Source of the DNA: a virus
DNA: 29,895 nt
IMG/VR virus record: IMGVR_UViG_3300010151_000094
Coordinates: 1-29,895 of that record
Reading direction: 5' to 3' (one strand)
The position numbers and the translations under genes are program-made. Positions 1,315 through 26,912 of this stretch are shown here, one piece after another (the first letter of the stretch is position 1; each line of letters opens with the position of its first letter). A model generated the notes under the pieces. It made no database searches, was not told where the DNA came from, and saw only the letters and a program-made list of their open reading frames with translations.

Positions 1315-3543
1315 ATGCCTAAGAAAGATGCACTAAAAGTCTATAATACTTTTGTAGCTGGTTTAGTTACTGAGTCTACTCCCTTGACTTTTCCTGAGAA
1401 TGCAGTTAAGGATGCTATTAACTGTATCTTCGATAAGAAAGGGGATATACGTAGGCGATTAGGCATCAACTATGAGAGTAGTTCCTCTTTAACTAATAAG
1501 AATGTTACAGAAAGTGAATGGCAAACTAAAGCTGTAGGCTGTTTTGAATGGAGTGAAGTAGCTGGTGATGGTAATAAGCATTTCTTAGTTGTTCAAGCTA
1601 ACGCAACTTTATATTATTTTGATATAGGTAGTCAACCAGTATCGGGTAATATTAAATCATTTACAACTAACTTAGCTTCCTTTGCAGCCCCCGGAGCTAC
1701 TGATGTAGGTTCAGAACAAGTCTCAGTATCTAGTGGTAAAGGTTTCCTATTTGTAGCTTCCAAGAAACTTAAACCATTTTATGTTACATATACTGCAGCT
1801 AGTGATTCTATAACTAACACTGAGATTGGAATACAAATTAGAGATTTTGATGGTGTAGATGACTCTTTAAGTATTGATGAAGAACCCTCTTCCCTCTCTA
1901 CCACACATAATTATAACTTAAATAATCAGGGTTGGGTCAGTCCGGGTGGTTCAGTAGCTAACCCAATCACTACCTACTATAGTAGCCAATCAAAATATCC
2001 CGGTAATAATAAACAATGGTGGGTAGCTAAGGATAGTAGTGATGACTTTGATCCTTCTGAACTAACTAAAATATTCTTTGGTAATACTCGTGCACCTCGT
2101 GGTCACTATCTCCTTGATCCATTCAATAAAGATAGGGATACTGCATCAGGACTATCAGGTATTGCTACAGAAACTACATCTACTCGTCCTCAAGCTACTG
2201 TATTCTATGCTGGACGTGCATGGTTTGGTGGTCCTCCAGAAGCAACTATTAGTGGTCACCTTTACTTTAGTCAGATTATTGAAGATGAAGCTAATATTTC
2301 TAGATGTTACCAAGAAGCTGATCCTACTTCTGAGGAAATTAGTGATCTTGTTGATACTGATGGCGGTGTAATTGTTATTCCTGAAGCTGGAAATATAGTA
2401 AGTTTAAGAGTAACTGGAGAATCTCTATTAGTCTTCGCAGATAATGGTTTATGGGAGGTTAGTGGAAGTGCTGGAACTGGGTTTACACCTACAGATTATA
2501 GTGTATCTAAGGTAAGCTCTGTTGGTATTAGTGGCAAACGGACTATTGTTGATGTTGAAGGTACTCCTATCTGGTGGAGTGATAGAGGTATTTATAGCAT
2601 CGGACGTAATCAAGTAACTGATCGTATCGAAGCTCAATCACTAACTAAACAAACTGTTCAAACATACTATGATAATGATATTCCTGCTGCTTCTAAAACG
2701 TATGCACAAGGTTCATACGATTCTGTTACTGGTAGAGTTACTTGGGGATGGAACTCAGATGGTAATGATACCAACTACAGATTCAAGTTTGATAGAGCTT
2801 TAATCTTTGATACTAACATAGGTGGATTTTATCCTTGGTCATTTGGAGAACTTGCTAGTAACTCCCCTTATGTCTTTGGTATCTTTACTCTACCCACTAT
2901 TAGTAGAGTTAGTATAACTGATACTGTTATACAAGCATCATCTGGAACTACAGTTATCCAACAGTCTTCAGGTAATACCGTCATTGCAGATGTAGACGTT
3001 ATACGAGGTGGACAAACAACTACCGTATTTATCACAGCAGTTCCCGGTACTGGTGAAAGTGAAATGACTTTCTCCTTATTAAATGATAGTACCTTTGTAG
3101 ATTGGAAAGGCAAGGATGGAACAGGAGTTGACTTTAGTAGTTACTTCGAAACTGGGTACCTTCTAGAAGGCAATATAACGATGCGTAGACAGACGCCTCA
3201 TATCTTTGTATACTCTAAACGTACAGAAACGGGATACGTACTCAGCGGGGCAGATCACGTACTACAGAACCCTTCTAGTTGCTACATGCAAGCACGATGG
3301 GACTTCGCTGATCATAGTAATTCCTCAAAGTGGGGTAGACGTAAACAAATCTATCGTATCTTAAAAGATTATGATAAGACTCCAACATCTCTAGACTTTG
3401 ATAGTGGCTTTCCCGTTACAATGACACGTAATAAAGTACGAGGAAGTGGCAAAGCTTTACATTTGTACTTTGATAGTGAAGCAGGAAAAGACTTTGATGT
3501 TTATGGATGGGCCGTCCACTTCTCAGATAATGCGGGACTATAA
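1315..3543 (+). CDS. Tail tubular protein B-like tail nozzle (T7 gp12-like)
   Basis: This 742-aa, mostly beta-rich protein has the hallmarks of podoviral nozzle proteins. The N-terminus has NTFVAGLVTESTPLTFPENA and then INCIFDKKGDIRRRLGI, the recurrent opening of the family. A central part reads VIVIPEAGNIVSLRVTGESL then LLVFADNGLWEVSG, the beta-propeller-like repeats of gp12. Later come WWSDRGIYSIGRNQ and a tail of strand-rich segments (FSYFETGYLLEG, QARWDFADHS). In T7 the protein forms the distal tail nozzle. The length is close to the usual 700-800 residues. The start directly follows the upstream TAG, with AGAGGA as ribosome site. No depolymerase or tail-fibre gene follows here, so the adsorption proteins must lie outside this window. 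Confidence 0.9.
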   Translation: MPKKDALKVYNTFVAGLVTESTPLTFPENAVKDAINCIFDKKGDIRRRLGINYESSSSLTNKNVTESEWQTKAVGCFEWSEVAGDGNKHFLVVQANATLYYFDIGSQPVSGNIKSFTTNLASFAAPGATDVGSEQVSVSSGKGFLFVASKKLKPFYVTYTAASDSITNTEIGIQIRDFDGVDDSLSIDEEPSSLSTTHNYNLNNQGWVSPGGSVANPITTYYSSQSKYPGNNKQWWVAKDSSDDFDPSELTKIFFGNTRAPRGHYLLDPFNKDRDTASGLSGIATETTSTRPQATVFYAGRAWFGGPPEATISGHLYFSQIIEDEANISRCYQEADPTSEEISDLVDTDGGVIVIPEAGNIVSLRVTGESLLVFADNGLWEVSGSAGTGFTPTDYSVSKVSSVGISGKRTIVDVEGTPIWWSDRGIYSIGRNQVTDRIEAQSLTKQTVQTYYDNDIPAASKTYAQGSYDSVTGRVTWGWNSDGNDTNYRFKFDRALIFDTNIGGFYPWSFGELASNSPYVFGIFTLPTISRVSITDTVIQASSGTTVIQQSSGNTVIADVDVIRGGQTTTVFITAVPGTGESEMTFSLLNDSTFVDWKGKDGTGVDFSSYFETGYLLEGNITMRRQTPHIFVYSKRTETGYVLSGADHVLQNPSSCYMQARWDFADHSNSSKWGRRKQIYRILKDYDKTPTSLDFDSGFPVTMTRNKVRGSGKALHLYFDSEAGKDFDVYGWAVHFSDNAGL

Positions 3544-3548
3544 GTATA

Positions 3549-4049
3549 ATGTGGGGTAGCATCTTAGGAGTAATTGGTTTAGGTCTTGCAATTGGCGGGA
3601 CAATATTTAATTTAGTAAAACAGAATAAAGCTGCTGATTTACAAGAAGAAGCTGCTAATGCACAACGTAGAGCGCTTGAACTCCAACAAAAGAAAAATAA
3701 GATAGAAGTACGAAGACAGAAGATGCAGTTAATTAGAGAGACTCGCATAAAACGTGCAGCTGCTGTAGCAAGGGCTGAAGCTCAAACTGGTGGTTTCGGT
3801 GGCTCTCTCCAAGGAGGTGTTGGAAGTATTATCTCTCAAGGAAGTTCTGGTCTAGGTTTCTTACATCAAGCTAGCAGTTTTACTCTAGCAGCTAGACAAG
3901 AATTTGCACAATCTACTATCTTTAATAATCAAGCAGTCCAACTACGTAATCAAGGAGCAATTGGTCAAGGTATCGCTTCAATTGGTGGGACTATTTTTGA
4001 TAAACGTACCAGTATTGTTAAAATTGGAACTCAATTAGGACTCATTTAG
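3549..4049 (+). CDS. Internal virion protein, T7 gp14-like, with N-terminal membrane segment
   Basis: The 166-aa protein opens with a hydrophobic glycine-rich segment (residues 4-22, SILGVIGLGLAIGGTIFN). A long charged helix follows, likely coiled coil (about 24-75, rich in Q, E, R and K). After it comes a Gly/Ser hinge (TGGFGGSLQGGVGSIISQGS) and an Ala/Gln-rich C-terminus. This layout is that of T7 gp14-type internal core proteins, which are ejected first and form the outer-membrane pore. It is the first of three successive internal virion protein genes and is followed without a gap by the 1532-aa gene (TAGATG). Sequence identity to gp14 was not tested, so the call rests on architecture and position. 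Confidence 0.78.
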   Translation: MWGSILGVIGLGLAIGGTIFNLVKQNKAADLQEEAANAQRRALELQQKKNKIEVRRQKMQLIRETRIKRAAAVARAEAQTGGFGGSLQGGVGSIISQGSSGLGFLHQASSFTLAARQEFAQSTIFNNQAVQLRNQGAIGQGIASIGGTIFDKRTSIVKIGTQLGLI

Positions 4050-7000
4050 ATGGGATTAACTCCAGTTACTGATAGCTTATCTATTACTCCTGTAGAACAG
4101 GTACCTGAAGTGCCTGATGAACGGTCTATGCGTTTAGCTACTCTGGCAACTATAGCTGATGAGCGTATTAATACATCAGAAGCTCGTAGTTTTGTAGATT
4201 GGCTTAGAATTACCCATCGCCCGGGAGGTGAAGCAGAAGCTCGTCAAATATTAGCTATTGATAAAGCAGATAAAGAGACTGATTCTCTAATTCTTAGTGA
4301 AACTGAAGATCCTATGGTAACACCTACTGAGTTTTTAGAGATTCTCCATTCACAGGAAGAAGAAGATTATAATAAAAAATACCAAAATATACTAGAGACT
4401 GAGACAGCAGCTTCTTTAAATGAAGGAGCGTTGATGGACCCTGTTCGTAGTGTAGTTATGGATAGGGAAGAACTTAGTTTAACTGATGAAGAGTTTGAAA
4501 AGCTTACTAGTCTGGATCGTAGAGAGAACTTAACTGCTGCTTTAATTAAGATGGACTCTTTACGTATGAAGTATGCTAAAGAGTTACAAAATGCAGGAAT
4601 CCCAGAGACTCTTGGAGGTCTTATATCTATCTTCATGCCATTTGTAGATACATTTACTCAGTGGGTTAATGGAGAACGTAGAGTTGAGACTCTAGGTGAT
4701 GCTCTTAGACGTGAAGCTACTGAACTCTTTAATAGTCCTGACCCTGTTAATGCTATTTCTAAATTTGAAAAGAAGTTAGAGGAAGGTAACCTCCCAACTT
4801 TACTCAAACTAGATAGTCTTATGACTAAATCTATCACAGAAGAAGAAGCAACTTTACGTACTGTCTTTGAAATTGTAGATTTAACTGGTTTGTTGGGTAC
4901 TACAGTACGTACAGCTAAAGCTTTTTCTCAAATGGGTAGATTATCTCGACTTGCTAAGGTAGCACAGAACCCCCAAGCTACTATAGATACTACACAAGAC
5001 TTAGGACGCCGTTCAAACGATGGTCCTTTAAGTATTGATGAGCAGGAAGAGTTGATTGAGAATGTTACTCCATCAAATGGTGTAGATTTTATTAATAATA
5101 CATCAGGACGTGCTGCTCGTACCTTAGAAGAACAAAGCGCAGAACTTGAAGCGATTCGTATGACTCGTGGACAAGACTTCTTAAGTGAAGCTGAGCAGAA
5201 TGAAGCTATTAACTTGATTAAGAATGATATCATGCAACAACATCCTCGGATAACTGCTGTAGATGTACAAGACGCTGATGATCTTAATCGTGTATCCTTT
5301 AGAATTGGTACTGGACGAGATGGCACCTCTTCATATACTAGTGAAGAAGCTGCTAGAGCTAGTGCATCTCGTTTAGGACTACAGCACGGATTCTACAAAG
5401 TTGTTAAAGAAGATGGTGTGTACCATCTTGATGTACAGAGAGATTTAGTAGATGTTGATGGTAGTGGAGCCTCCCTTCTTGTTGGATTTGATGTTCCTGA
5501 TAATTTAACTACTCCTCTATTCCTTTCTAAATATCTTACAGGTAACAAAGTCAACCTCAACTTTGCTGATCGCTTAGCTGAAGGTGGAATTACTGGTGTT
5601 AATGCTGCTGCTAGACTTAATGAGATTTTTAAGAGTAGTACAAAGCTTATTACTAGACTTAACAAACGTGAACGTACTTCTTTTGATGCCGTTATGTTGT
5701 ATACTCAAAGGAATAACAATGGACGTTGGTTAAAATCACAAGACTTTGAAGACTTCTATCTTGAAAAACTGCATAGGCGTCCTACACAGAATGAAAGGAT
5801 AGCGTATGGAGCAGCTATTCAAGTCCATAAAGCTGATGAGTACATTCTCAATCAAGCTGTACGCCAAGACTTTATTCAAAAAAGGTTTCAAGAGATTGGT
5901 GTAACTGGTGCAAGAGAGTCTAAGACAATTGGTAAAATTATTCCTGAGTTTGATAGGAAGAACTTAAAAAATGTTAGTATCTATGATGCTACTAATGGAG
6001 ATTACTTTCCTAAAGGTACGTCACCTTTACGTATTAGAGAAAAGTTAGCTGGTGATGATACACTAGTCTTAGTTAAATATCTTGATGATGTTCCTATTGA
6101 AGCTGCGACACGTAAAGTAGATGACTTTGGTAGTCTTGGGTCTGAAGGAGTTAAAGCTCAGTATATCTTAACTCGTAAAAATAATGTAAACCAAACTGCT
6201 ATTCGTGCTAGAGTTCTGAATCATTTTGATGGACCTCACCGTGAATATAAAACTCCTATCTTTGTTAAACAGTCTTTGGTTAGCGACGGTACCTTTACTG
6301 GACTACGTACTCACTTCAATGTAGGTTCTGAACAGCAAGCTATTAAAGTTGCTACTCAATACAACCAAGCTCTTATAGCTTTTCTAAGAGCAGAGAAAGC
6401 TGTTAATGAGAACTTAGCAGAAGCTGCTACAAGTGTTACTGAAGCGTCTAACATAATACAAACAAATACACGTTACAGTAGCTACGACGAATTTAAACAA
6501 GCTATTGATAATAAGGAAATTGAACGTACATTCTTTGAAGCTTGGATTGACCAAGGAACTAAACCACTAAATAAGATTGAAGGTGGCCGTCATTCTCATG
6601 AGTACGCTGAAGATGCTATGGACATAGATGCAGACTACATGAATTTATCTGAGACTTCACGAAAGTATATCGACCAAGGTAGATTGTATTTCTCATCAAG
6701 AGGGCATCATCTACCTACTCCTGATGGTGACCTTGCTCCTGTGCTGGATGCTACAGAAATTATGGAAAACTCTATCAAGCACATTATTAATACTAGAGCC
6801 TTTGGAGAGTATAAGTCAAGACATATTAAAGAGTGGGTGCAAACTTTTAAAGATCATCTTGATAGTGGAGGAGTTATCCGTCCTGATTGGTACCATTTTA
6901 CTCATGGTAAATTTAACCCTGATACTCCTACTGAGATACACAAAGCAGGAGAGAGAATACGTACCGGTTTAAACCGTATTGTTCATGCTAAATCAGAAAC

Positions 7001-8648
7001 TGTACGTAGACGAGAACGTTTAATGCATGATATGCTTCAGTACACTTTACGTGAAGATGCAAAAACAATGCGTAAACTTGCTTACAAGGGTATCCTTAAA
7101 ATTTCTGATAAAGATTATATCTCAGGGATACGTGCACTTACATTTAAAGCCTTTTTAGGTATGCTGGATGCTTCTCAAGTAATTGTACAAACATCATTGA
7201 CACCAGCTATCTTAACTGCGTTCCCACGTTTAGGTACGCAAGCATTGTCTATGATGATTCCCCTACGTATGTCTACAATGTTTGGTAACCCTAAAGCATT
7301 AGACCATTTAGCCTCTATCATGTCTACTATAGGGTTAGTTGTAGGTAAGAAGCCTATGAAAGCTCGTGAGATTCGTTGGATGATTGACGATATGCGTGAT
7401 AGTGGTGTTGATATTGTTGGTGGTTCACAAGCACAGCTTGATAATCCTTTTGATGGTAACATAATTTATAATAATAGGCTTCTTGAGTATGGTAACAAAG
7501 CTTTAGATATTGGTCTTATTCCATTTAAAGAAGGTGAGCGTCTAAATCAGATGCTTGGCTTTGAGATTGCTTGGCTTGAACATTTCTCTAAGGCACGTCG
7601 AAGACCTACTAGAGATGAACTAGGTAAGATTCTTAATAGGGCTGAGACAATAGCCGGTAACATGAAGAGTTCCTCTCGTGCTGCTTACCAAAATGGAATA
7701 GCTAGTATTCCTACTCAGTTTGCTGCTCATCCTGTCCGAGTATTTGAACAAATACTTAAGCAAAGTGGTGGTCTTAGTAAGACTGAACGAGCTTCTTTCT
7801 TCACAGGTATCGTATTAGCATATGGATTAGGTGGCCTTGGCCTTGATAATATTGCAGATAAAACTGCTGAACTATACTCTGGCGCTACAGGAGAGCCTAT
7901 GACACCTGAGTTAGTTAATAATCTTAAGAATGGATACGTTAGTAAATTGTTCGAAGGACATGATATCTCTCGTGTCCAGCCATTAAAGAATACTATTATC
8001 CACAAAATACTTAGTGATGAAGATTTACCTAAGTCTGAGTTCTTTGGTCCAGCTGGTGGATTAGTTGGAGATACTTGGCAATCTTTTGGTGGTAGCATTC
8101 TTATCAGAGGGTTAATTGAAGGAACATTAGAACTTGAGGAAGTACCTGAAACCTCCTTAAATATGGTTAAGGAGATGCTTACTAATCTTCCTAATCCTTC
8201 ACGTTTAACTAAAGCATGGAGTATGCACCTATCTAGCGTAGAGTACAGTAAGTCTGGTAGACTACTAGATAGTAAAGAATACTCAAACTTTAACATAGCT
8301 ATGACTGCATTAGGCTTTCCTCCCAAGGGTAGTAAAGACGCATACGATATTGTACTAGACATTCAAGATATCAAAAGTGCTATGAAACCTCATGTACAGC
8401 GAGTCCTTAAAGCTGCATCAAATATGGCCTTATCTGAAGACAAAGAAACTATTGCAGCAAACGGTAGAGAGATAGCACGTTGGGTCAAACTATATGAAGC
8501 TCAAGAACCACACATTGAACGTGCCTTTAAAGATGCTGTTGTCAATGGACTAGGAAAAATGAGTACACCACAAACCCCATTAAACTTCCAAAAGGCTTAT
8601 AAGTTCTTTGGTAGTGACTATGTGAATAAACGAGTGAGGATAGACTAA
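4050..8648 (+). CDS. Large internal virion protein, T7 gp16-like position, 1532 aa
   Basis: This is the largest gene in the window. The product is mostly alpha-helical and charged, with no signal peptide. It has long Glu/Arg-rich helices in the first 550 residues. A region around 1010-1100 is hydrophobic and Met-rich (TFKAFLGMLDASQVIVQTSL, then SMMIPLRMSTMF). A further hydrophobic stretch reads FFTGIVLAYGLGGLGL near residue 1255. In T7-like virions the largest internal protein (gp16) is ejected into the host and spans the envelope during DNA entry; size and order support that role. I see no convincing lytic transglycosylase motif at the N-terminus, unlike T7 gp16, so peptidoglycan cutting may lie elsewhere. 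The stop overlaps the next start (TAATG). Confidence 0.8.
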   Translation: MGLTPVTDSLSITPVEQVPEVPDERSMRLATLATIADERINTSEARSFVDWLRITHRPGGEAEARQILAIDKADKETDSLILSETEDPMVTPTEFLEILHSQEEEDYNKKYQNILETETAASLNEGALMDPVRSVVMDREELSLTDEEFEKLTSLDRRENLTAALIKMDSLRMKYAKELQNAGIPETLGGLISIFMPFVDTFTQWVNGERRVETLGDALRREATELFNSPDPVNAISKFEKKLEEGNLPTLLKLDSLMTKSITEEEATLRTVFEIVDLTGLLGTTVRTAKAFSQMGRLSRLAKVAQNPQATIDTTQDLGRRSNDGPLSIDEQEELIENVTPSNGVDFINNTSGRAARTLEEQSAELEAIRMTRGQDFLSEAEQNEAINLIKNDIMQQHPRITAVDVQDADDLNRVSFRIGTGRDGTSSYTSEEAARASASRLGLQHGFYKVVKEDGVYHLDVQRDLVDVDGSGASLLVGFDVPDNLTTPLFLSKYLTGNKVNLNFADRLAEGGITGVNAAARLNEIFKSSTKLITRLNKRERTSFDAVMLYTQRNNNGRWLKSQDFEDFYLEKLHRRPTQNERIAYGAAIQVHKADEYILNQAVRQDFIQKRFQEIGVTGARESKTIGKIIPEFDRKNLKNVSIYDATNGDYFPKGTSPLRIREKLAGDDTLVLVKYLDDVPIEAATRKVDDFGSLGSEGVKAQYILTRKNNVNQTAIRARVLNHFDGPHREYKTPIFVKQSLVSDGTFTGLRTHFNVGSEQQAIKVATQYNQALIAFLRAEKAVNENLAEAATSVTEASNIIQTNTRYSSYDEFKQAIDNKEIERTFFEAWIDQGTKPLNKIEGGRHSHEYAEDAMDIDADYMNLSETSRKYIDQGRLYFSSRGHHLPTPDGDLAPVLDATEIMENSIKHIINTRAFGEYKSRHIKEWVQTFKDHLDSGGVIRPDWYHFTHGKFNPDTPTEIHKAGERIRTGLNRIVHAKSETVRRRERLMHDMLQYTLREDAKTMRKLAYKGILKISDKDYISGIRALTFKAFLGMLDASQVIVQTSLTPAILTAFPRLGTQALSMMIPLRMSTMFGNPKALDHLASIMSTIGLVVGKKPMKAREIRWMIDDMRDSGVDIVGGSQAQLDNPFDGNIIYNNRLLEYGNKALDIGLIPFKEGERLNQMLGFEIAWLEHFSKARRRPTRDELGKILNRAETIAGNMKSSSRAAYQNGIASIPTQFAAHPVRVFEQILKQSGGLSKTERASFFTGIVLAYGLGGLGLDNIADKTAELYSGATGEPMTPELVNNLKNGYVSKLFEGHDISRVQPLKNTIIHKILSDEDLPKSEFFGPAGGLVGDTWQSFGGSILIRGLIEGTLELEEVPETSLNMVKEMLTNLPNPSRLTKAWSMHLSSVEYSKSGRLLDSKEYSNFNIAMTALGFPPKGSKDAYDIVLDIQDIKSAMKPHVQRVLKAASNMALSEDKETIAANGREIARWVKLYEAQEPHIERAFKDAVVNGLGKMSTPQTPLNFQKAYKFFGSDYVNKRVRID

Positions 8649-10912
8649 TGGCTTATAGAACTGGTACAGGCTTTGTCGATGTTGTATCTAGTGTACAAGA
8701 TAGGTCTAAAGTATTAGCGACAGGAGAAGCTACAAAGGCTGATAGAAGGTTTCAAGGTCAAAGTATATCCCAACTAGCTAAGTTGGCGGGAGGTAGTGTT
8801 GATCTAGCAACGGACTTATATGGCCAAGAGATCGTAACAGACTTACAAACAGCAAGGTCAGAAGCTTTTAAAGAGTTTCAACGATTTACCAAACAAGGTA
8901 CTGCTGCGGTACGCCAAGGTAAAACTCCTAAAGCTCTGTACAATACTATGTTAGTCAAGAAGGTACAAGAGATTGAAAAACGTTACCCCGGCTTTGCTGA
9001 AGAAGTAGAAGATGCTAAAAAAGCTATGGGTATTAAACCTCGTGATGCTATTATAGCTGAAGAACAGCGTATGCGAGTGCTAGAAGATCAAGCTCTTCTG
9101 GATGAGGCAAGAACTTTAAAAACTCTTAGATTCAATTCTGATAGGAGTATTGATTGGGACGAAACCTTTAATGATACTTCAGAACTTAAAGCTAGTAATG
9201 CTGCACGAGCAACATTAGAGACGAGGGCTAGGGCTCGTGGTGAAACTGATGTTACCGAACATGGTCCGGCTTACTTATCAGGATCAGACACGATCTATAA
9301 AAACCTTGCTATTAAATTTAACAATGAAACCAGATCATTTATTACTGAAATTGATAAGATAGTTACACAAGGAGGAAATCCAAAAGAACTTATAACTCAA
9401 GGTTTGACAAAATTAACTAGATGGGAACAAGTACAACTTAATCAGATTAGAGATAAATGGTACGGTAAAGACAGAGAAAAATTTACAAAGTTTATTACAG
9501 ATAAAGTAGCTGGTATACGACAGATAATTACTGGTAAGAAAGAACCTCAAGGTATGGCTGCTTCTCTTGAGATGTATACTAAAATGGTCAAGAATATGGA
9601 TCTAGCTTCTCTACGAGAGTCACTTCCTGCTCTTTCAAGATTGATAAACATTGGAGGAGAGGCAGCACAAAAAGCTATATTATCTGATGGACTATTAAAA
9701 CTTCTTTCTTCTGGTAAAATAAAAGATATGTCTACCGGACTTAATGCGTGGCTACTTGCAAAGGATGCAACCTCTTTGGTTTCTACTCCTTCATTTAAGG
9801 GTGACCCTAAAGAAATAGCTGAGGTAGGATTAAATAGTTTACATTCTATCTTAAAAAATGGTCCGTTTACCGAAGAGAATGCCCAAATAGTTTTTGGTGC
9901 TAATTCAATGATAGCTAGGGCACACAACAATGGGCATCTTGAAGCTGAAGATTACGAAGCTATTCGTAAGACCTTTGATAACCCTGTCTTCAAAGGATTT
10001 TTAGAGAAACAACCTAAACGTAAGCAACAAGAACTAGGTAGTCTTGCTTTTGATGTGTTCAATTCAGCTTCTGAAAAACATTTAGCTCAGATAACTAGTA
10101 GAGGTTTCTTCAGAGGTATTGAATATACCGGTGATAAACTAAAAATCATCGCAGATGATGCAGCGATTTCCGTAGCTGAACAACGAGGAGCTATGGGTAT
10201 ACGTTCGCAGATTGAACAAGATGAAAAAGTTTTAAATAAACTCTTCGATGATATGAACTTTTATCTAAAATTTAAGAAGGCCTATGCAGAATCACCTATG
10301 AATAAAGGAGATATAGAAAGACACATTAGATCCCTTAATGGTGAAGCTATCGCTTTAAGATTCTCACTCCCAGATATAACAGAGTTACCAGTAAGTATTG
10401 GTGAGTCACCTACGGTGGTGAGAACTGGCCCTATATTTCCTGCAAACTTTAGCTTCAGAGATGTTTTCTTAAAAGCTATGGAGTTGTTAGATAGGTGGGA
10501 TGACAAAGGTAAAACTAGTATTAATCTTATGGGACCAGAAGGAGCAGTATATAAACAAATACTTAGTGGAGCTTTATCTTCAAATTTAAAACACTTTAGA
10601 GCTAGGGAGTGGACTGCAGAAGGTGAGAAAATCAGAGAAAATCTGAATCTAACTGAGCATATCCCCGGTGGCCCGTCTAAAACTGTACCACTTGATGCAG
10701 CTTTTGAGAAGCCCCTTCCTAGAATAGCTTATGCACCACCTGTATCAAATGTTAGCAGTAGTAAGGCTGTAACATCACCAATCAACCCAACCTTTTTGGC
10801 AAGAAGTCTAAAGAGGGCAACTAAGGATGAACTAACCAAGCTGGCAAATGAAAGTCAAAATCCTGAAATCTTACAATTAGTTGAAGCTGAACGTAAACGT
10901 AGGGGATCATAA
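8648..10912 (+). CDS. Internal virion protein, T7 gp15-like position, 754 aa
   Basis: A 754-aa helical, charged protein that begins MAYRTGTGFVDVVSSVQDRS and starts on the upstream stop (TAATG). It is Ala/Glu/Lys-rich throughout, has no membrane segment, and ends with a Lys/Arg-rich tail (VEAERKRRGS). The N-terminal motif QSISQLAKLAGGSVDLATDL is of a type seen in gp15-like internal core proteins. With its neighbours of 166 and 1532 aa it makes a set of three internal proteins, the same number as the T7 inner core (gp14, gp15, gp16), though here the largest gene comes in the middle. A role in the ejected DNA-translocation machine is inferred. Enzymatic domains were not seen. Confidence 0.75.
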   Translation: MAYRTGTGFVDVVSSVQDRSKVLATGEATKADRRFQGQSISQLAKLAGGSVDLATDLYGQEIVTDLQTARSEAFKEFQRFTKQGTAAVRQGKTPKALYNTMLVKKVQEIEKRYPGFAEEVEDAKKAMGIKPRDAIIAEEQRMRVLEDQALLDEARTLKTLRFNSDRSIDWDETFNDTSELKASNAARATLETRARARGETDVTEHGPAYLSGSDTIYKNLAIKFNNETRSFITEIDKIVTQGGNPKELITQGLTKLTRWEQVQLNQIRDKWYGKDREKFTKFITDKVAGIRQIITGKKEPQGMAASLEMYTKMVKNMDLASLRESLPALSRLINIGGEAAQKAILSDGLLKLLSSGKIKDMSTGLNAWLLAKDATSLVSTPSFKGDPKEIAEVGLNSLHSILKNGPFTEENAQIVFGANSMIARAHNNGHLEAEDYEAIRKTFDNPVFKGFLEKQPKRKQQELGSLAFDVFNSASEKHLAQITSRGFFRGIEYTGDKLKIIADDAAISVAEQRGAMGIRSQIEQDEKVLNKLFDDMNFYLKFKKAYAESPMNKGDIERHIRSLNGEAIALRFSLPDITELPVSIGESPTVVRTGPIFPANFSFRDVFLKAMELLDRWDDKGKTSINLMGPEGAVYKQILSGALSSNLKHFRAREWTAEGEKIRENLNLTEHIPGGPSKTVPLDAAFEKPLPRIAYAPPVSNVSSSKAVTSPINPTFLARSLKRATKDELTKLANESQNPEILQLVEAERKRRGS

Positions 10913-11310
10913 TGGCTCCTCGTGGTATTAGAAATAATAATCCGGGCAATATCGAGCATGGTATTGATTGGAATGGTATGGCTGAAGAGCAGCCTGATGA
11001 GCGCTTCATTAAGTTCAAAGATCCTGAACATGGTATAAGGGCTATGGCACGTATCTTAATGACATATACTAATAAGTATGGTATCTCCTCAGTTTATGAT
11101 GCAGTATGCCGATGGGCGCCACCACATGAGAATGACTCTGATGCCTATGCTGCCTTTGTAGCTGATTGTATGGATGTTGACCCACATGAATGTATTGACC
11201 TTACTAACCGTAGCATTCTTGCTAAGATGATACCAGCTATGATTAAGATGGAGAACGGTGAGCAACCCTATCCATTAGAACAGATTAAAGAAGGGATTAG
11301 TCTTGTCTGA
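10912..11310 (+). CDS. RNNNPGNI-family virion or lysis protein (structural protein P5-like)
   Basis: The 132-aa protein opens APRGIRNNNPGNIEHGIDWN, the signature of a widespread phage family with R-N-N-N-P-G-N then W-x-G. It then has FIKFKDPEHGIRAMARIL, YGISSVYDAVCRWAPPHEND and a C-terminal helix. Members are variously annotated as structural protein P5, virion-associated muramidase or lysozyme-like protein; catalysis is not established for most of them. No other endolysin candidate is visible in this window, and a holin gene lies 1.2 kb downstream. This could therefore be the peptidoglycan-degrading partner, or a virion-borne one used on entry. It is translationally coupled to the gene before it (TAATG). 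Confidence 0.75.
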   Translation: MAPRGIRNNNPGNIEHGIDWNGMAEEQPDERFIKFKDPEHGIRAMARILMTYTNKYGISSVYDAVCRWAPPHENDSDAYAAFVADCMDVDPHECIDLTNRSILAKMIPAMIKMENGEQPYPLEQIKEGISLV

Positions 11311-12529
11311 AGATAGTAAGAATAAAGATGTAATTCTAGAACATCCTAATCATGGGGATATTATTCTAGAAGTACCAGAGGCATATACTTCTGATCAAAT
11401 ACAGGAGTATGCTCAAGGTATTGACTTTGATACTATGTTGAACTCTCCTCAAGAACCTATTGAGACTGAAGATACCTCTGCACAAGGAGTTTATGCAGAC
11501 ATTGGTGTTGACAACAGTAATCTTGGAGCAGTTAACCCTGAAGAAGACCAACAATTCTTAAGCAATATGGCTACTGAGTTGGCGAATTTTATAGGCCCCG
11601 GTGCTGATATCAAAGATGCTGTAGCTGCTAGTGGTAAGACAATGCAAGCTCTAAAGAGTGGTAATCCGGGGGAGGCCACTTTAGGTATAGCTCAAATGTT
11701 TGCTGGAATAATTGGTGCACTAGTCCCGGGATCACAGAAGATCAAGTCAGCTGGTAAAGCTGTGGGTAAGCAGCTTGATGAGGCTCTCCAACCTAACATG
11801 CCCACTAAAGGATACCATGGGACAGTAGGTAAAGAGATGTCTGTTACTAGGTACGATAAAGAACTTTCTAACCCTAAAGATATGTTCCTAGGTCCGGGGT
11901 TTTATGTCACCATTGAGCCTAAGATAGCTGGTGAGTACGCTAACTTTCGGGCTATCAAAGGTAAGATTGTACCAAGCACTAAAGATCAAAAGAAGAGACT
12001 GCTTGAAACTAAAGAAGGACAAGTCTTTAAGGAAGATAGTCAAGAGATTGCCAAAGGTTTAGACATCGAGGGTAAACCTATCAATGCTGGACAGAATGTA
12101 TTACCTTTAGATATCAGTAAGCTTGAGAAGACATACATGGTCAAGGATAATAAGGATAGATTGTGGGCTATCAAGAATAGAGATAAACTTATTGAACAAG
12201 GGTACGATTCAATTGCTTTTGAAAACTTTGCAGATAGGTCTAAACAGATTGTTATCTTCCCTAAAGCTGTACATAAAGTAAAAGGATTAGCTCGTGGTAA
12301 AACTAAAGGTAAAACTAGAGAAGAAGTAGAGGTACAAGGTGGCCCCCTGTCTCGTAAGTTTGAAGAGACACAGATAGGTCGTATCCTTGATGAGCATGGT
12401 GTCGAATGGGAGTACCATGAGAATGGGGGTGTTACAGCTATAGAAGAGTTCTCTAAAGGGCCATCAAAGAAGAAATACTTTGGACCTAACACAACGTTAA
12501 AGACACTACGTAACTGGTTAGGTTATTAA
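11303..12529 (+). CDS. Polyvalent protein with predicted ADP-ribosyltransferase domain, TTG start
   Basis: The best start is TTG at 11303 behind AAGGGA. The conserved-looking N-terminus (VILEHPNHGDIILEVPEAYT) precedes the first ATG by some 35 residues. Residues 1-60 form this N-terminal module, 85-160 are Ala/Gly-rich with a weakly hydrophobic stretch (LGIAQMFAGIIGALVPG), and 169-328 resemble the ART domain of phage polyvalent proteins. The key pieces are YHGT (171-174), LGPGFYVTIEP (197-206) followed by an Ala/Tyr helix, and YDSIAFEN (301-308) then a strand ending IVIFP. H172 and Y201 fit the H-Y-[E/D] type of catalytic triad; E307 may be the third residue. The last 60 residues form another small domain. 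Its place among internal virion protein genes suggests ejection into the host to modify a protein target. Activity is inferred. Confidence 0.72.
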   Translation: MSEDSKNKDVILEHPNHGDIILEVPEAYTSDQIQEYAQGIDFDTMLNSPQEPIETEDTSAQGVYADIGVDNSNLGAVNPEEDQQFLSNMATELANFIGPGADIKDAVAASGKTMQALKSGNPGEATLGIAQMFAGIIGALVPGSQKIKSAGKAVGKQLDEALQPNMPTKGYHGTVGKEMSVTRYDKELSNPKDMFLGPGFYVTIEPKIAGEYANFRAIKGKIVPSTKDQKKRLLETKEGQVFKEDSQEIAKGLDIEGKPINAGQNVLPLDISKLEKTYMVKDNKDRLWAIKNRDKLIEQGYDSIAFENFADRSKQIVIFPKAVHKVKGLARGKTKGKTREEVEVQGGPLSRKFEETQIGRILDEHGVEWEYHENGGVTAIEEFSKGPSKKKYFGPNTTLKTLRNWLGY

Positions 12530-12548
12530 AAATTAGTAGGAGATTAAC

Positions 12549-12944
12549 ATGCTTCCAATATTAGGACCAGTGATCTCAGGCCTCTTTGACATTGGTAAAC
12601 AGTACCTAGGTAATAAGGCTGAGAAGGCTCAAGCTAAGCACGAACAAGAAGTAGCTGTCATTAAAGGTGATCAGCAATGGGACCAAATACAGGCTCAGAA
12701 TAGTGGTGATAGTTGGAAAGATGAATTCTTAACTGTGGTTATCACCAGCCCCTTTGTTGCTATGTTTATTGCATCTGTCTTTGGTGACATGGATATGGTC
12801 GAGCGCCTTTCGGATGCCTTTATTATCTTACAAACAAATGTACCAGAGCAGTATTGGACACTTCTTTACGTTGCCTTTGCTGCTTCCTTTGGAATTAAAG
12901 GTGTACTTAAAGGTGTCAAAACCTACAAAGATGGTAAAAAATAA
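12549..12944 (+). CDS. Holin of the three-TM (GTA-type) family
   Basis: The 131-aa protein starts MLPILGPVISGLFDIGKQYL, followed by a charged coiled segment (residues 20-60). It then has two clear membrane segments, FLTVVITSPFVAMFIASVFG (about 65-84) and YWTLLYVAFAASFGIKGV (about 102-119), and a Lys-rich end. The SPFVAMF and YWTLLYVAFAASFGIKG motifs match the holin family described for gene-transfer-agent release, common in marine phages. It would permeabilise the inner membrane at the end of infection. AGGAG lies 7 bases before ATG. It is the last late gene; its stop is 5 bp from the stop of the convergent operon. Confidence 0.82.
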   Translation: MLPILGPVISGLFDIGKQYLGNKAEKAQAKHEQEVAVIKGDQQWDQIQAQNSGDSWKDEFLTVVITSPFVAMFIASVFGDMDMVERLSDAFIILQTNVPEQYWTLLYVAFAASFGIKGVLKGVKTYKDGKK

Positions 12945-12949
12945 ATAGA

Positions 12950-13309
12950 TTACTTTTCTTTTGTAGACTGTGGTACTAGTACATCTTGTTTAAGTCTCTC
13001 AAGATACATGGCTGCATCTAATAACTCTTCAATAGTATGGTCTATCCATTGAGAAGTTGTTATATCTGTCCTTTCCATTGTACAACCGTACTTCTTTATT
13101 CCTTCTCTTGAGCGTTCAGTCATCCTTTTTACAACCGTGGCAACAATAGGATCTGGATCTATTTTCCATCTCTCCCTCTGCCACTCAAGAGTTCTGGCAT
13201 CTAACCCCTCATCTATAGTGTACTCCATATCAATCGGAAGCGTATGTTTTGAGGGTGTGTAGCCTACGGTACGATAGCCTTTAAACCATCTCTGTAAATA
13301 AGTAAACAT
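12950..13309 (-). CDS. MazG-like nucleotide pyrophosphohydrolase-type protein, 119 aa
   Basis: The last gene of the leftward operon. The C-terminal two thirds carry RMTERSREGIKKYGCTMERT, then SQWIDHTIEELLDAAMYLER. This is the R-x3-G-x2-KYG...W-x2-H-x2-EE-x2-D pattern of a phage all-alpha MazG-like family. The EELLD motif supplies candidate metal-binding Glu/Asp residues (about 92-96). Relatives are proposed to hydrolyse (d)NTPs to monophosphates. The N-terminal 45 residues (WFKGYRTVGYTPSKHTLPID) are not recognised. With the RNR and a second MazG-like protein upstream it would fit nucleotide-pool management. The ribosome site is weak (AAAGAGAG). Confidence 0.62.
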   Translation of the reverse strand: MFTYLQRWFKGYRTVGYTPSKHTLPIDMEYTIDEGLDARTLEWQRERWKIDPDPIVATVVKRMTERSREGIKKYGCTMERTDITTSQWIDHTIEELLDAAMYLERLKQDVLVPQSTKEK

Positions 13310-13320
13310 ATTCTCTCTTT

Positions 13321-13398
13321 CTATAAAATTTTAATAGTATGGATAACAAGTGTAGCTATACTAATAGCTGTCCACGTTAGTAAGAATGTTGTCAACAT
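13321..13398 (-). CDS. 25-aa single-span membrane peptide
   Basis: A short reading frame starts on the RNR stop codon (TAATG) with an AAGGAG ribosome site 9 bases upstream, inside the RNR 3' end. The peptide is MLTTFLLTWTAISIATLVIH followed by TIKIL, almost entirely hydrophobic and long enough to cross a membrane once. It occupies the otherwise empty stretch between RNR and the MazG-like gene. The clean coupling, good ribosome site and membrane-compatible composition argue for a real gene. Such tiny peptides cannot be proven by eye, and no function is known. Confidence 0.55.
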   Translation of the reverse strand: MLTTFLLTWTAISIATLVIHTIKIL

Positions 13399-15086
13399 TA
13401 CCCGCACTCCTTTTGTCCTGTATCAGGGTCAATAAAACAAGCGGCTCCTTCCTCTTCTGGCTCAATTTTATTTAGTATACCGTACCTCTTACCATCTAAC
13501 CTAAAGGTAGTTACTCCTTTAAGTTTACCTTTCCATGCCTTCGTATAGATTTCCTTGAACTCTTCAAAAGAAACTTGACTACCGACATTAATGGTCTTTG
13601 ATACAGCCGAATCAATAAAAGGTTGAACAGCAATTTGCATATTAAGGTGATCGTCAACGGTGAGGTCATCAGTAGTTTCACCTTTGAGTCCAAACCTATC
13701 GTAAACGAAATCCCGTAGGCGAACAATCTGTGGCCCATTCTCTGTCTGTACTGTACGATCAAGCTCATATTGAAATACCGGTTCTATACCACTGGATATG
13801 TTATCTGCTGTAAAGGATATGGTACCAGTAGGAGCGATACTTGTCAAGTGAGAATTACGAATACCTTGCTGTTTAATCTTATCCTTTAAATCATTAGGCA
13901 ATCGTGAAATGTATCCACTACTCAAGTATTCCTCAGAACTATAAGCAGGGAAAGATCCTTTCTCTACTGCTAAGTCTGCACTAGATGAGTAAGCTTCACA
14001 CATAAGTGTCTTAAGAATTTTACGAGTAAGCCTTAATGACTCCGAACTCCCATAAGGGTAGCCACATAAAGTAAGACAGTTAGCAAGACCGGTGACACCA
14101 AGCCCCATTCTACGTTTAGATTTTGCTTCAACCTCCTGTTCTCCCAAAGGGTAACTAGTACGATCAATAACATTATCCATAGCGCGAACAACATGGGGGA
14201 TGTCCTCCTTGAATTGACTAAAGTTAAATCGTGTATTACTTATGTACTTCACTAGGTTAAAAGAACCAAGGAGACAGGCCCCATAAGAAGGGAGTGGCTG
14301 TTCACCACATGGATTAGTTGCTTCTATTGGCTCACAGTATTGCAAGTTATTCTCATTGTTAATACGATCTAAGAAAAGTACCCCCGGTTCAGCCCAATCC
14401 CAATTGTTTCTCATGATCTCATCCCACAATGCATTAGCATTTACTGTGCGGTAAGGCTGGCCATCAAAGGTTAAAGTAAATACCTTCTCGTCCCTCACAC
14501 ATTCCATGAATTCATCTGTGATACCCACTGAAATATTAAAGTTAGTAAGGGAGTTATCATTACGTTTGGATCTTATGAACTCTTCGATATCGGGATGGTC
14601 TACGCGCAGAACCGCCATCATTGCTCCTCGTCTATGCCCCGCTGACATAATCGTTTGACATACTGCGTCATAGATACCCATGAAAGAGACAGGACCACTA
14701 GAAGCAGAGTCAAGGGATACAATACGATCACCGCTAGGCCTGATCCTACTAAAGTCAAAACCAATTCCACCACCTCTACGCATAGTCTCAGCGGCTTCAG
14801 TAGCCCTTGCCATGATGCTCTGCATTGAGTCTTCAATCGTACCAGACACAAAACAATTGTATGCTGTAACATCTCTTGGACTCCCCATTGCTGCTTGTAC
14901 TCTACCCGCTGGCATGAATCTTTGGTTGAGTAAGATGTCTTTGTAAGCAAGTCTATGTTCTTCGGTATCGGCCATTGCGCCCGTTTGTCTCGCGCAAGCT
15001 TCACTGAACGCTTCATTAGCTAACCTATATTTCTGTGCATGTAATGCATCACATGCTGGGTTCTGTGGTCCATATGTATCAAACAT
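13398..15086 (-). CDS. nrdJ: Class II (B12-dependent) ribonucleoside-diphosphate/triphosphate reductase
   Basis: The 562-aa protein reduces ribonucleotides to deoxyribonucleotides for phage DNA synthesis. Catalytic features are clear: C78 (AYNCFVSGT) and C271 (GACLLGSFNL) as the redox pair, and NPCGE at 258-262 with the thiyl-radical Cys260 and Glu262. The loops RRGGGIGFDFSRIRPSG (about 103-119) and APTGTISFTADNISSGIEP are also present. There is no class I radical-subunit gene next to it and no class III glycyl-radical end, so class II with adenosylcobalamin is favoured. The C-terminus has ACFIDPDTGQKECG, whose cysteines may relay electrons. It is shorter than many cellular NrdJ proteins. GGAG lies 9 bases before ATG, and the start overlaps the MazG stop by 8 bp. 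It resembles the RNRs of SIO1-type phages. Confidence 0.9.
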   Translation of the reverse strand: MFDTYGPQNPACDALHAQKYRLANEAFSEACARQTGAMADTEEHRLAYKDILLNQRFMPAGRVQAAMGSPRDVTAYNCFVSGTIEDSMQSIMARATEAAETMRRGGGIGFDFSRIRPSGDRIVSLDSASSGPVSFMGIYDAVCQTIMSAGHRRGAMMAVLRVDHPDIEEFIRSKRNDNSLTNFNISVGITDEFMECVRDEKVFTLTFDGQPYRTVNANALWDEIMRNNWDWAEPGVLFLDRINNENNLQYCEPIEATNPCGEQPLPSYGACLLGSFNLVKYISNTRFNFSQFKEDIPHVVRAMDNVIDRTSYPLGEQEVEAKSKRRMGLGVTGLANCLTLCGYPYGSSESLRLTRKILKTLMCEAYSSSADLAVEKGSFPAYSSEEYLSSGYISRLPNDLKDKIKQQGIRNSHLTSIAPTGTISFTADNISSGIEPVFQYELDRTVQTENGPQIVRLRDFVYDRFGLKGETTDDLTVDDHLNMQIAVQPFIDSAVSKTINVGSQVSFEEFKEIYTKAWKGKLKGVTTFRLDGKRYGILNKIEPEEEGAACFIDPDTGQKECG

Positions 15087-23683: not shown

Positions 23684-23873
23684 CTTCACTCCAATCATCT
23701 AGCTGTGGCAGTTCATCTAATAGTTCCTTAATATATCCTGAATCAGACTCAAGAGATAAGGAGTTATCATATGAAGATTGAGTACACTCTGAACAAGGCA
23801 TCCATCTCTTGTTCTTATCTTGTCGTATCTCAGAGGATTCTAAGATACGATTACATATATAACAACGGCTCAT
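23661..23873 (-). CDS. Small CxxC...CxxC protein, 70 aa
   Basis: ATG at 23873 overlaps the rIIB stop (TAATG) and gives MSRCYICNRILESSEIRQDK then NKRWMPCSECTQSSYDN. The CxxC pairs at residues 4/7 and 27/30 form a likely zinc ribbon, and the C-terminal half is acidic. Proteins of this form (C-x-I-C-x-R-x-L ... P-C-x2-C) are common small ORFs in T7-like phages and have no assigned role. It precedes the primase-helicase gene and overlaps it by 23 bp. Confidence 0.75.
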   Translation of the reverse strand: MSRCYICNRILESSEIRQDKNKRWMPCSECTQSSYDNSLSLESDSGYIKELLDELPQLDDWSEDVSDTPI

Positions 23874-24775
23874 TACCAACTCCCATCAGAATCACTCTTT
23901 ACTGCATCATGAAACCCTGCTTCCCAATCAGCGTGATCAGTAGGGTTTGAGTCCTTATCAAAAGGATTGTCATCATCACCAAGGTGATAACTATCCCAAC
24001 CATTATCATATGGACCTTTCCATCCTCCATCAGATACACTGGACTCAGACAAAGTATCCTTAGTATCATGCATATGCTCAGCAACAACAGTATACTTACA
24101 GCACCGGCCCTTGCTATTGTTGTAGTCAACAGGGATGCTAACCACATCAGCAGGGTTGATCTTCACTACCATTGTGTGACCACTGGTACCCCAGAATCCT
24201 TTGAGGTATTCAATAGAACAGAAGTGTAAGCCAGAGCTACACGTCTGATTAGGATCATCCATAACTTCATTACGTGCCATCTCACATACTGCACCTACTG
24301 AATTATCAAAGGTGTTGCTATGCTTATCCTTGTAGTCTTCATTGACATTCTTGTAAGCTAAGAAGTACCCATCTGGTGTGATGGGTAGGCTGTTGCTCTC
24401 AAGAAAACGATACAGTTCTTTGATAGCCCTTCCACTTGGGTTAACCATCAAGTTCTCAAGGAACTTCACCATTGGTGACACATCGAATCCATCCTGAATC
24501 ATACGAGAGATCCGTTGAGTCAACGAATTGTGTAGTTCAGTTCCATTCCAGAACACAACACCACCTTGAACATAGACTTGTCCTTCACCAAAGTCATTGA
24601 TTGACTTTGCTGCATCAGCTAAACGCATAGCTTCTGTGTAATCACCCAACTTAATAGCCATCACAGCCGCAGTGTACGACACATGAGACGAAGGGATAGT
24701 AAGGATACCTTCATCGGTAGTGATGGTGATAGCCGAGCTAGTTACGAGGTGGCCGAGGTAAGTTTGACTAGACAT
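23873..24775 (-). CDS. rIIB: rIIB-like protein
   Basis: The 300-aa protein has the conserved rIIB core: a region with LENLMVNPSGRAIKELYRFL, then LPITPDGYFLAYKNVNEDYK, and CSSGLHFCSIEYLKGFW followed by VVKINPADVVSIP. The last 60 residues are Asp/Ser/Gly-rich and lack a recognisable fold. In T4, rIIA and rIIB act at the membrane and oppose exclusion by lambda RexAB; in other phages the pair is widespread but its role is unclear. AAGGAG lies 8 bases before ATG. The start overlaps the end of rIIA by 8 bp, keeping the usual rIIA-rIIB order. Confidence 0.88.
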   Translation of the reverse strand: MSSQTYLGHLVTSSAITITTDEGILTIPSSHVSYTAAVMAIKLGDYTEAMRLADAAKSINDFGEGQVYVQGGVVFWNGTELHNSLTQRISRMIQDGFDVSPMVKFLENLMVNPSGRAIKELYRFLESNSLPITPDGYFLAYKNVNEDYKDKHSNTFDNSVGAVCEMARNEVMDDPNQTCSSGLHFCSIEYLKGFWGTSGHTMVVKINPADVVSIPVDYNNSKGRCCKYTVVAEHMHDTKDTLSESSVSDGGWKGPYDNGWDSYHLGDDDNPFDKDSNPTDHADWEAGFHDAVKSDSDGSW

Positions 24776-26912
24776 TACAATTCTCCTTTAGGTTAATGTA
24801 GTCTTCAACAATGTAAGCATGTTCATTCTTAGGATCGTATGGTAGGTTAACATGCTTTAGTAATGGGTAACGTTTAAAGAACTTTTTACTTAGAGCTTCA
24901 GACTTAAGAACTAAGTCATCTCCATAATCATTACCCTTCTCTCTTATACCCATCCCATTTAATTGGAGACAAGCATTGTAGATATCATAGATACTTTTAG
25001 CATTAAGGTTCTTATTAAAAGTTAAGGCTCGTTGTTTACATAGACTATAGTAACTCTTATCTATAGCTATGTCAAGTGAAAAGATTTCTTTATGATCGCC
25101 AATGAACTCAGACATTGACTTTACATAGTTCATCTTAGAGATAGTTAAGGGTGTTAACATATCCTTTTTTAATTCAAACAATTGATTGATAGCCTCATCA
25201 ATATGTATGAAGTTCGGGTGGTCCTTAAGTTTATTTTTGTGTGACCCGGGACATCCATAGATAGGTGTTGATACGGGTACTATATCGTACTTCTTTAAAC
25301 TTTGTATAACCTTATCCAACTGACTATCATGCCCATCATAGATGTACTTCGAATCCTGAAGTGTTCTCTTACGTACATTGATCCATACTCCAGTGGAATT
25401 GTCAAGATCAATCTCACCTTGTTTATCGGACCACCATGGAGTGTTCCACATACGATGTTTACTTTCTATAAACTCAAGAGCTTTAGCTGTCTTTCGTTGG
25501 ACACCAGATGTTGTGTTGCGTTGCACCTTATAGTCAGGGACTACATCACCAAAATCTTGGGTAACTTTCCAACCATAGGTTGTATACACCCAGCGTCTAA
25601 CTTTTGCTTTAGTATTATCTTTGTAGTAGAATAAGATAGCTTGATCATTAGGGTGGTGTTCATGCATGTACCTAAGTAAACGTGACGGTACTTTCTTAGT
25701 ACTCTCATGTATTATGAACACTTGATAGTTCTTATCGTATACCGTTATAGGTAGGTCACCATTTACATTTCCAGATATTGTATAATCCTGTAAACTCAAG
25801 GACTTATACCTCCATCTATACTGTGGTACCACCACTAGCTTAGGACATGGACTCTTACAGTATACAATTCTATTAATGGCAACCCCTTTATACGTAACAT
25901 CTGCCAATTTTTTTGTCAATCCTTGTATTAAACTAGCACTCTCTTTAAACATTTTTATAGCTTGGTAGATGTTAGGTTGTTTCTCGATATCTTTTTGGAA
26001 CCCATCAATAACCTCATCAATAACCTTGTCCGCCTTCTTACGAATTACCTCAATGGTTGTATCAACATATAGTATTGACTCCCTTGACATAGGTAGTTTG
26101 ACACTGCCTATAGGTACATGGATATCAACACCATGATCAAGAAGGTAAGAGTACTTATCCAATCTATCCTCACGTACTTGATCCGAATCAACAGGGTACC
26201 ACCTACGTCCCATAATAATACGGGATTGTCCTCTGTATCCTTCACGTTTAATCAAGCCCCAACCCTCACCAGTTTGAGTGTAATTATTTTCAGGCCACTC
26301 AACTTCTAAGTTAGTCTCAGGTCTAGGATCATTGAAGTACTGAAGAGATTCTTTAACGTACTTCTTAACGTCATCGAACGTACCTTCAGGTACAGGGATA
26401 CGTACCTCAGTACCGTTACGTTCAGTAGTACTGCGCTCATACAGCTGGACTATTGAAGGGATGTTGTACTCATCCTTGTAACATGTGATAGCACACTCAG
26501 TACCCTCATACCTACTGATCACGGTGTACTCTTCACCAATAGCTAGCCCTACTTTCATACCAAGACCGAAGCCACCTTCAGTCTCGTTGTCTTCATCTTT
26601 AGTAGAGGCACCAAGATTGTTGTACTTAATTAGATTGTCCCTACCTATACCAATACCAGTATCAGTGACACTATAGTATGGCTCCAACATAGTAGGTAGG
26701 TGGATGTAAATAGGTATGTGCCCACGGTCAGCCATGTCCATTGCTTCGACAGCATTGGTCACTAACTCAACGACACCGGCCTTCCAAGGCACAGTGTACA
26801 AGGACACAAGGGTATTGAGTATGATCTTCTCCGGCTTATCAATACCCATTGCTACCTTGGCCATGAGGTTAGCACTATCTACCTCATTGATTTGATCACC
26901 ATGTACTTTCAT
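24768..26912 (-). CDS. rIIA: rIIA-like protein with GHKL ATPase domain
   Basis: The 714-aa protein has the three GHKL ATP-binding boxes near its N-terminus: N-box VELVTNAVEAMD (48-59, with E49 and N53), G1 box VTDTGIGIG (82-90) and G2 box EGGFGLGMKVG (112-122). The remaining 580 residues are rIIA-type and not otherwise recognised. The Hsp90/MutL/gyrase-type fold suggests ATP-driven dimer closing. With rIIB it probably acts early at the cell envelope against exclusion or superinfection; this is inferred from T4. The start overlaps the previous stop (ATGA). Confidence 0.88.
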   Translation of the reverse strand: MKVHGDQINEVDSANLMAKVAMGIDKPEKIILNTLVSLYTVPWKAGVVELVTNAVEAMDMADRGHIPIYIHLPTMLEPYYSVTDTGIGIGRDNLIKYNNLGASTKDEDNETEGGFGLGMKVGLAIGEEYTVISRYEGTECAITCYKDEYNIPSIVQLYERSTTERNGTEVRIPVPEGTFDDVKKYVKESLQYFNDPRPETNLEVEWPENNYTQTGEGWGLIKREGYRGQSRIIMGRRWYPVDSDQVREDRLDKYSYLLDHGVDIHVPIGSVKLPMSRESILYVDTTIEVIRKKADKVIDEVIDGFQKDIEKQPNIYQAIKMFKESASLIQGLTKKLADVTYKGVAINRIVYCKSPCPKLVVVPQYRWRYKSLSLQDYTISGNVNGDLPITVYDKNYQVFIIHESTKKVPSRLLRYMHEHHPNDQAILFYYKDNTKAKVRRWVYTTYGWKVTQDFGDVVPDYKVQRNTTSGVQRKTAKALEFIESKHRMWNTPWWSDKQGEIDLDNSTGVWINVRKRTLQDSKYIYDGHDSQLDKVIQSLKKYDIVPVSTPIYGCPGSHKNKLKDHPNFIHIDEAINQLFELKKDMLTPLTISKMNYVKSMSEFIGDHKEIFSLDIAIDKSYYSLCKQRALTFNKNLNAKSIYDIYNACLQLNGMGIREKGNDYGDDLVLKSEALSKKFFKRYPLLKHVNLPYDPKNEHAYIVEDYINLKENCNV

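Follow-up and report, generated by a model that had tools for sequence, protein, structure and literature searches.

A predicted ADP-ribosyltransferase beside the internal virion protein genes of a Zobellviridae-like podovirus

Main finding

We found that a viral record of 29,895 bases (hereafter the window, i.e., the whole stretch of DNA that was analysed) encodes a small, separate protein with a predicted ADP-ribosyltransferase (ART) domain, next to its genes for internal virion proteins (IVPs). We estimate a probability of roughly 60% that this protein is a virion cargo enzyme that is ejected into the cell and ADP-ribosylates a host molecule early in infection. The notion that phages package and inject ARTs is well established (T4 Alt; PMC5512222; PMC9503650). 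What is new is a subfamily of ARTs that carries a characteristic Gln, the small separate form of the protein and the exchange of an N-terminal module between lysozyme and ART. Searches of open-licence papers for internal virion proteins or the ejectosome together with ADP-ribosyltransferases gave few papers, none of which, by title and abstract, is on this topic. Outside T4, packaged ARTs have mostly been predicted from giant polyvalent proteins. The ART described here is small and separate, and its short N-terminal module is found on a different enzyme in relatives, which makes it a compact case for testing packaging, ejection and target.

Gene order and the reading frame

The structural genes of the window are of the Zobellviridae-like podovirus type. 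The tail nozzle/appendage protein (1315..3543; phrog_8094, E=9e-181) has full-length matches of 34-38% in Roseobacter phage SIO1, MEP401 and related phages. It was our anchor for finding relatives, and 80 related viral loci were gathered through its alignment. On the plus strand, which carries all genes and features located below unless stated, the order is adaptor, nozzle, IVP B, IVP C, IVP D, a muramidase-like protein, the ART reading frame and a membrane protein. The IVP B-like gene (3549..4049) has a weak T7_gp14 match and conserved synteny, the IVP C-like protein of 1532 amino acids (4050..8648) matches the internal virion protein family phrog_12003 (E=1e-35), and the IVP D-like protein of 754 amino acids (8648..10912) is assigned by synteny and has homologs in L012 and L020. 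The muramidase-like protein (10912..11310, 132 amino acids; phrog_873, E=4e-53) resembles P5 of phage PM2 (45%, tblastn). The membrane protein (12549..12944, 131 amino acids) belongs to phrog_2524, whose function is unknown; it has hydrophobic segments and is holin-like by hydropathy only. Replication genes are on the minus strand. Also on the minus strand of this podovirus, genes resembling rIIA and rIIB (23873-26912) lie beside those for a primase-helicase and a polymerase.

The predicted ART gene (11303..12529) encodes 408 amino acids. It starts with TTG at 11303, overlapping the end of the muramidase gene by 8 bases, and its stop codon is at 12527-12529. The purine-rich sequence AAGAAGGGAT lies upstream of the TTG with the spacing of a ribosome-binding site, and the start is supported by the conservation of the N-terminal module described below. 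A preliminary description of this DNA placed the gene in the internal virion protein operon; it does follow the IVP B, C and D and muramidase genes. A scan of positions 8000-14000 for promoters and terminators gave fewer sites than chance alone would produce, and is therefore uninformative on transcription units.

Evidence for an ART fold

The prediction of an ART fold for residues 166-326 (11798..12280) is well supported, because a consistent list of structural matches agrees with the sequence evidence from Pfam and profiles. The Pfam family ART-PolyVal (PF18760) matches residues 167-319 with E=2.6e-6 and 28.7 bits. This score is just below the curated cut-off of 31.2 bits, and we therefore place the protein in a diverged subfamily next to ART-PolyVal and do not count it as a formal member. 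For the sister ART gene of L018, the score is 31.9 bits (neighbours included in frame). Against a profile of 18 canonical phage ARTs, from which the window's own clade was left out, the reading frame scored 32.9 bits, and the best of 5000 shuffled sequences scored 10.7. The preliminary description had recognized YHGT (171-174), GPGFYVT (197-203), an Ala/Tyr helix, YDSIAFEN (within GYDSIAFEN, 300-308) and a strand with VIFP, and the shuffle test indicates that these occur in ART order and spacing beyond chance. The strand of the last motif is QIVIF (315-319), followed by P320. All members of the subfamily have an insert, about 45 residues long, that separates the Tyr helix from the GQ-V/I motif.

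Searches with the single sequence against phage records and viral contigs gave only near-identical contigs and two insignificant matches. No ART relative was found in a scan of genome contigs, so no prophage form was seen. Relatives in the subfamily were taken from viral contigs and aligned with canonical ARTs (alignment A6, 28 ARTs). N-terminal fragments were left out of the structure alignment because they misaligned when mixed in.

An AlphaFold model of the domain made with A6 has a pLDDT of 76.9 and a pTM of 0.69. In this model, H172 lies in a strand (169-175), Y201 lies in another (200-203) and the Ala/Tyr helix spans 206-218. Comparison with the PDB, the check proposed earlier for this domain, gave ART folds at all of ranks 1-22, the best being 1xk9 (E=1.2e-3, probability 1.00). 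The matches include exotoxin A, diphtheria toxin, cholix, the RES toxin and an insecticidal ART, with PARPs lower down; with E-values of 1e-3 to 4e-2 and a TM of about 0.45, they are moderate. A Foldseek search of a viral structure library gave 25 matches below 1e-3, many of which are named ART-PolyVal. When the full-length protein was modelled with AlphaFold from 12 sequences, the result was of low quality (pLDDT 50). ARTs nevertheless took the first five places among its PDB matches, none of them significant.

The PDB match at rank 23 (9k3a_B, E=0.037) is a chain of the cyanophage A4 pre-ejectosome, and it weakly resembles the ART model (11798-12292). If this chain truly has an ART-like domain, the presence of such a domain in a solved ejectosome would directly support a role as cargo. 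Weak ART-PolyVal matches of 13-21 bits also occur in the IVP C proteins of L034, L063 and L065, and we do not count them as proof. These IVP C-like proteins (L063/L065:13021-19059, L034:7221-13175) have about 2000 amino acids, and the weak matches may be internal ART domains.

Predicted active-site residues

The conserved residues of the pocket are H172 (codon 11816..11818), which is the first residue of the triad and is in YHGT, Y201 (11903..11905), which is in GPGFY, and D302 (12206..12208), which is in GYD. The preliminary description had singled out H172 and E307. H172 is conserved in the YHGT strand. By contrast, relatives have E, T, A or D where E307 stands, and E307 was rejected as the catalytic acid; the invariant acid is D302, found in 28 of 28 aligned ARTs. 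The active site of polyvalent ARTs consists of H, Y and D (Iyer et al. 2017, PMC5512222), and in our own reading D302 would be the D of this signature. The A6 profile matches YHGT and the Tyr strand in exotoxin A and cholix, with weak E-values.

The position of Gln315 (12245..12247) is Gln in the whole subfamily and Glu, the usual catalytic residue, in most canonical ART-PolyVal members (NEYIVF). PDB sequences yielded no alignment of the last strand with PARPs, so the equivalence of Gln315 and Glu is based on the phage alignment.

Modules outside the ART domain

The acidic N-terminal module (residues ~6-57, 11318..11473), identified with jackhmmer and a held-out profile, has homologs at the N-termini of T4-type lysozyme proteins, whose genes fill the slot that follows IVP D in L014, L015, L018 and L020/L021. 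It also occurs on a like protein of the short contig L144 and on a peptidoglycan-binding protein of L016. A profile of the lysozyme N-termini, made with the window excluded, matches the window's protein with 26.6 bits (E=1.8e-6; best shuffle 9.1), which bears out the earlier idea of a separate module starting at the TTG codon. Among 8135 reading frames, this was the sole further match, and the next candidates have E-values of 5 or more. Each locus in which the module was found has a single copy: L018 carries it on the lysozyme and not on the ART, the window on the ART and not on the muramidase.

The middle module (residues ~76-163, 11528..11791) is Gly-rich and helical, and was detected by a held-out profile with 58.8 bits. 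It recurs in the ART of L018, behind the lysozyme domain of an L069 lysozyme protein, and at the N-terminus of a 213-amino-acid protein of L044. Given how the two modules are shared, the window's protein resembles the N-terminus of a slot lysozyme joined to an ART of the L018 type. Since these parts recur across cargo proteins, we read the protein as modular virion cargo. Outside the near-identical contig L001, no relatives were detected for the C-terminal extension of 82 residues (327-408, 12281..12526).

The slot after IVP D and homologs elsewhere

To judge from the predicted genes of the related loci, this lineage would use the slot after IVP D for cargo, with lysozymes, a fusion of a transglycosylase and an ART, a lone ART and at least one further putative effector interchanging in it. 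In ctOsX528 (MW202697), a single protein in this slot has a lytic transglycosylase (SLT) domain at residues 40-141 and an ART at 278-407. This protein, UOF80613, matches ART-PolyVal with E=2e-12. The phage is a related podovirus and the slot is the same, but the ART is fused behind the transglycosylase, whereas the window has a muramidase and an ART as two overlapping genes. The fusion protein (L006:23305-24543, 412 amino acids) is annotated as hypothetical. In L018, the ART gene comes after a lysozyme gene, with an overlap of one base, and the encoded ART is 43% identical to that of the window in the aligned part. L085 likewise has an ART protein after IVP D (E=7e-26). Matches to ART-PolyVal are patchy, occurring in 6 of 50 related records, 3 of them above the cut-off. 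In the podovirus ctQRb9, an ART domain is found within a 3209-amino-acid protein after a lysozyme gene.

The closest homologs in the subfamily outside this phage group (32-36% identity) are in the HMO-2011-like podoviruses L099, L101 and L104. They share the insert and the SKQI-FP strand. Unlike the ART in the window, they are internal (residues ~590-790) to proteins of about 1500 amino acids that bear the polyvalent domain LPD23, and the corresponding genes lie directly 3′ of an SU10-type portal gene. The ART domain in this clade is under strong purifying selection (dN/dS 0.03-0.05).

Comparison with known ARTs

The protein resembles ART-PolyVal/Tox-ART-HYD2 (PMC5512222) in its motifs and their order, in its H, Y and invariant D, in its fold and in its context of phage virion genes. 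It differs in the insert after the Tyr helix, in having Gln where most have Glu, in a score just under the cut-off and in being a small separate gene, not a domain of a giant protein. Instead of a multidomain polyvalent architecture, it has only two small modules and a C-terminal tail, although sisters in the subfamily are found in large proteins.

ORF173 of LIMEstone1 (Ackermannviridae) is also a small stand-alone ART-PolyVal protein (E=5e-12). It was detected in virions by mass spectrometry, with one peptide and 11.8% coverage (PMC3296691). LIMEstone1 is a distant myovirus with another genome context, however, and ORF173 has neither the N-terminal nor the middle module.

The parallel with T4 Alt drawn in the preliminary description is apt as an analogy of delivery, in that both would be packaged ARTs acting as infection begins, but this likeness holds only if the window's protein is ejected. 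As kinship, the parallel fails. Alt belongs to the R-S-E class, and the H-Y-D class is related to PARP, diphtheria toxin and cholix (PMC5512222). The window's protein has the H-Y-D residues and not the R-S-E active site of the Alt/VIP2 family, and the two proteins belong to different ART clades with no common context.

Proposed role and alternatives

In the mechanism that we propose, the acidic module of ~50 residues and the Gly-rich helical module would place the ART among the ejection proteins, and the protein would accompany the DNA and the IVPs into the cell. To judge from its fold and residues, the H-Y-D domain would then use NAD to mono-ADP-ribosylate a macromolecule of the host, most probably a protein, at an early stage of infection. 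Packaging and ejection are probable from the context. We found no virion proteomics of this phage or of any Zobellviridae ART. Delivery with the virion is favoured because of the gene's place behind those for IVP B, C and D and a muramidase, the SLT-ART fusion, the portal-adjacent homologs, the lysozyme module in the same slot and the LIMEstone1 precedent. This context suggests that the ejection envisaged in the preliminary description was well motivated. Counted against it are the merely presumed virion status of the lysozymes that share the module, the single peptide from a distant phage, the weakness of the 9k3a_B match and the patchy distribution of ART genes.

The position of the gene, between the muramidase gene and the holin-like gene that it directly precedes, also counts against cargo and lends itself to the main alternative, a late cytoplasmic ART of a lysis cassette that is not packaged and could act on, for example, the host envelope, translation, defence proteins or a second phage. 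L012 and L013 fit this scheme, since in their slot a small endolysin precedes the same membrane protein. On the other hand, the domain of the 132-amino-acid muramidase is also found inside the 949-amino-acid proteins in the IVP D position of L074 and L078, and neither the ctOsX528 fusion nor the large portal-adjacent sisters have a lysis context. We therefore regard a lysis role as rather unlikely. Gln315 is a further point against an active cargo enzyme, and the ART fold might be catalytically weak or dead and retained for a structural or binding role in the ejection apparatus. Some PARPs that lack the Glu are inactive, but several mono-ART PARPs without it are active. The retention of H172, Y201 and D302, the invariance of the Gln within the clade and the strong purifying selection on the domain in the sister clade make loss of activity improbable. 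Phage ARTs, like Macro and Nudix proteins, are often tied to NAD-based conflict (PMC9503650), which would fit an enzyme, ejected or not, that counters an NAD- or ADP-ribose-based bacterial defence instead of modifying a housekeeping protein. No gene in the window points to a defence target, and targets are indistinguishable here; we consider this reading very improbable.

A candidate loading tag

Within the cargo reading, the N-terminal module may have a docking or loading function. More tentatively, its ~50 residues could be a tag for loading or docking virion cargo that is on the lysozyme in most relatives and was moved onto the ART here, such that the slot would be an exchangeable, tagged position for ejected enzymes. 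The module can thus be considered a candidate tag by which proteins could be loaded into virions of podoviruses.

The lysozymes that bear the module (L018:10269-12308, L014:15283-16989, L020:19151-20671, L015:19441-21156 and L144:338-1819) have ~490-680 amino acids and lie after IVP D wherever the contig covers that site. After their lysozyme domains, and in some cases also peptidoglycan-binding domains, they have a long C-terminal region of unknown function. The protein in the same slot of L044 (18434-19075) combines the middle module with a different C-terminal domain, which has no Pfam match, looks ParB/sulfiredoxin-like by eye and is possibly another effector.
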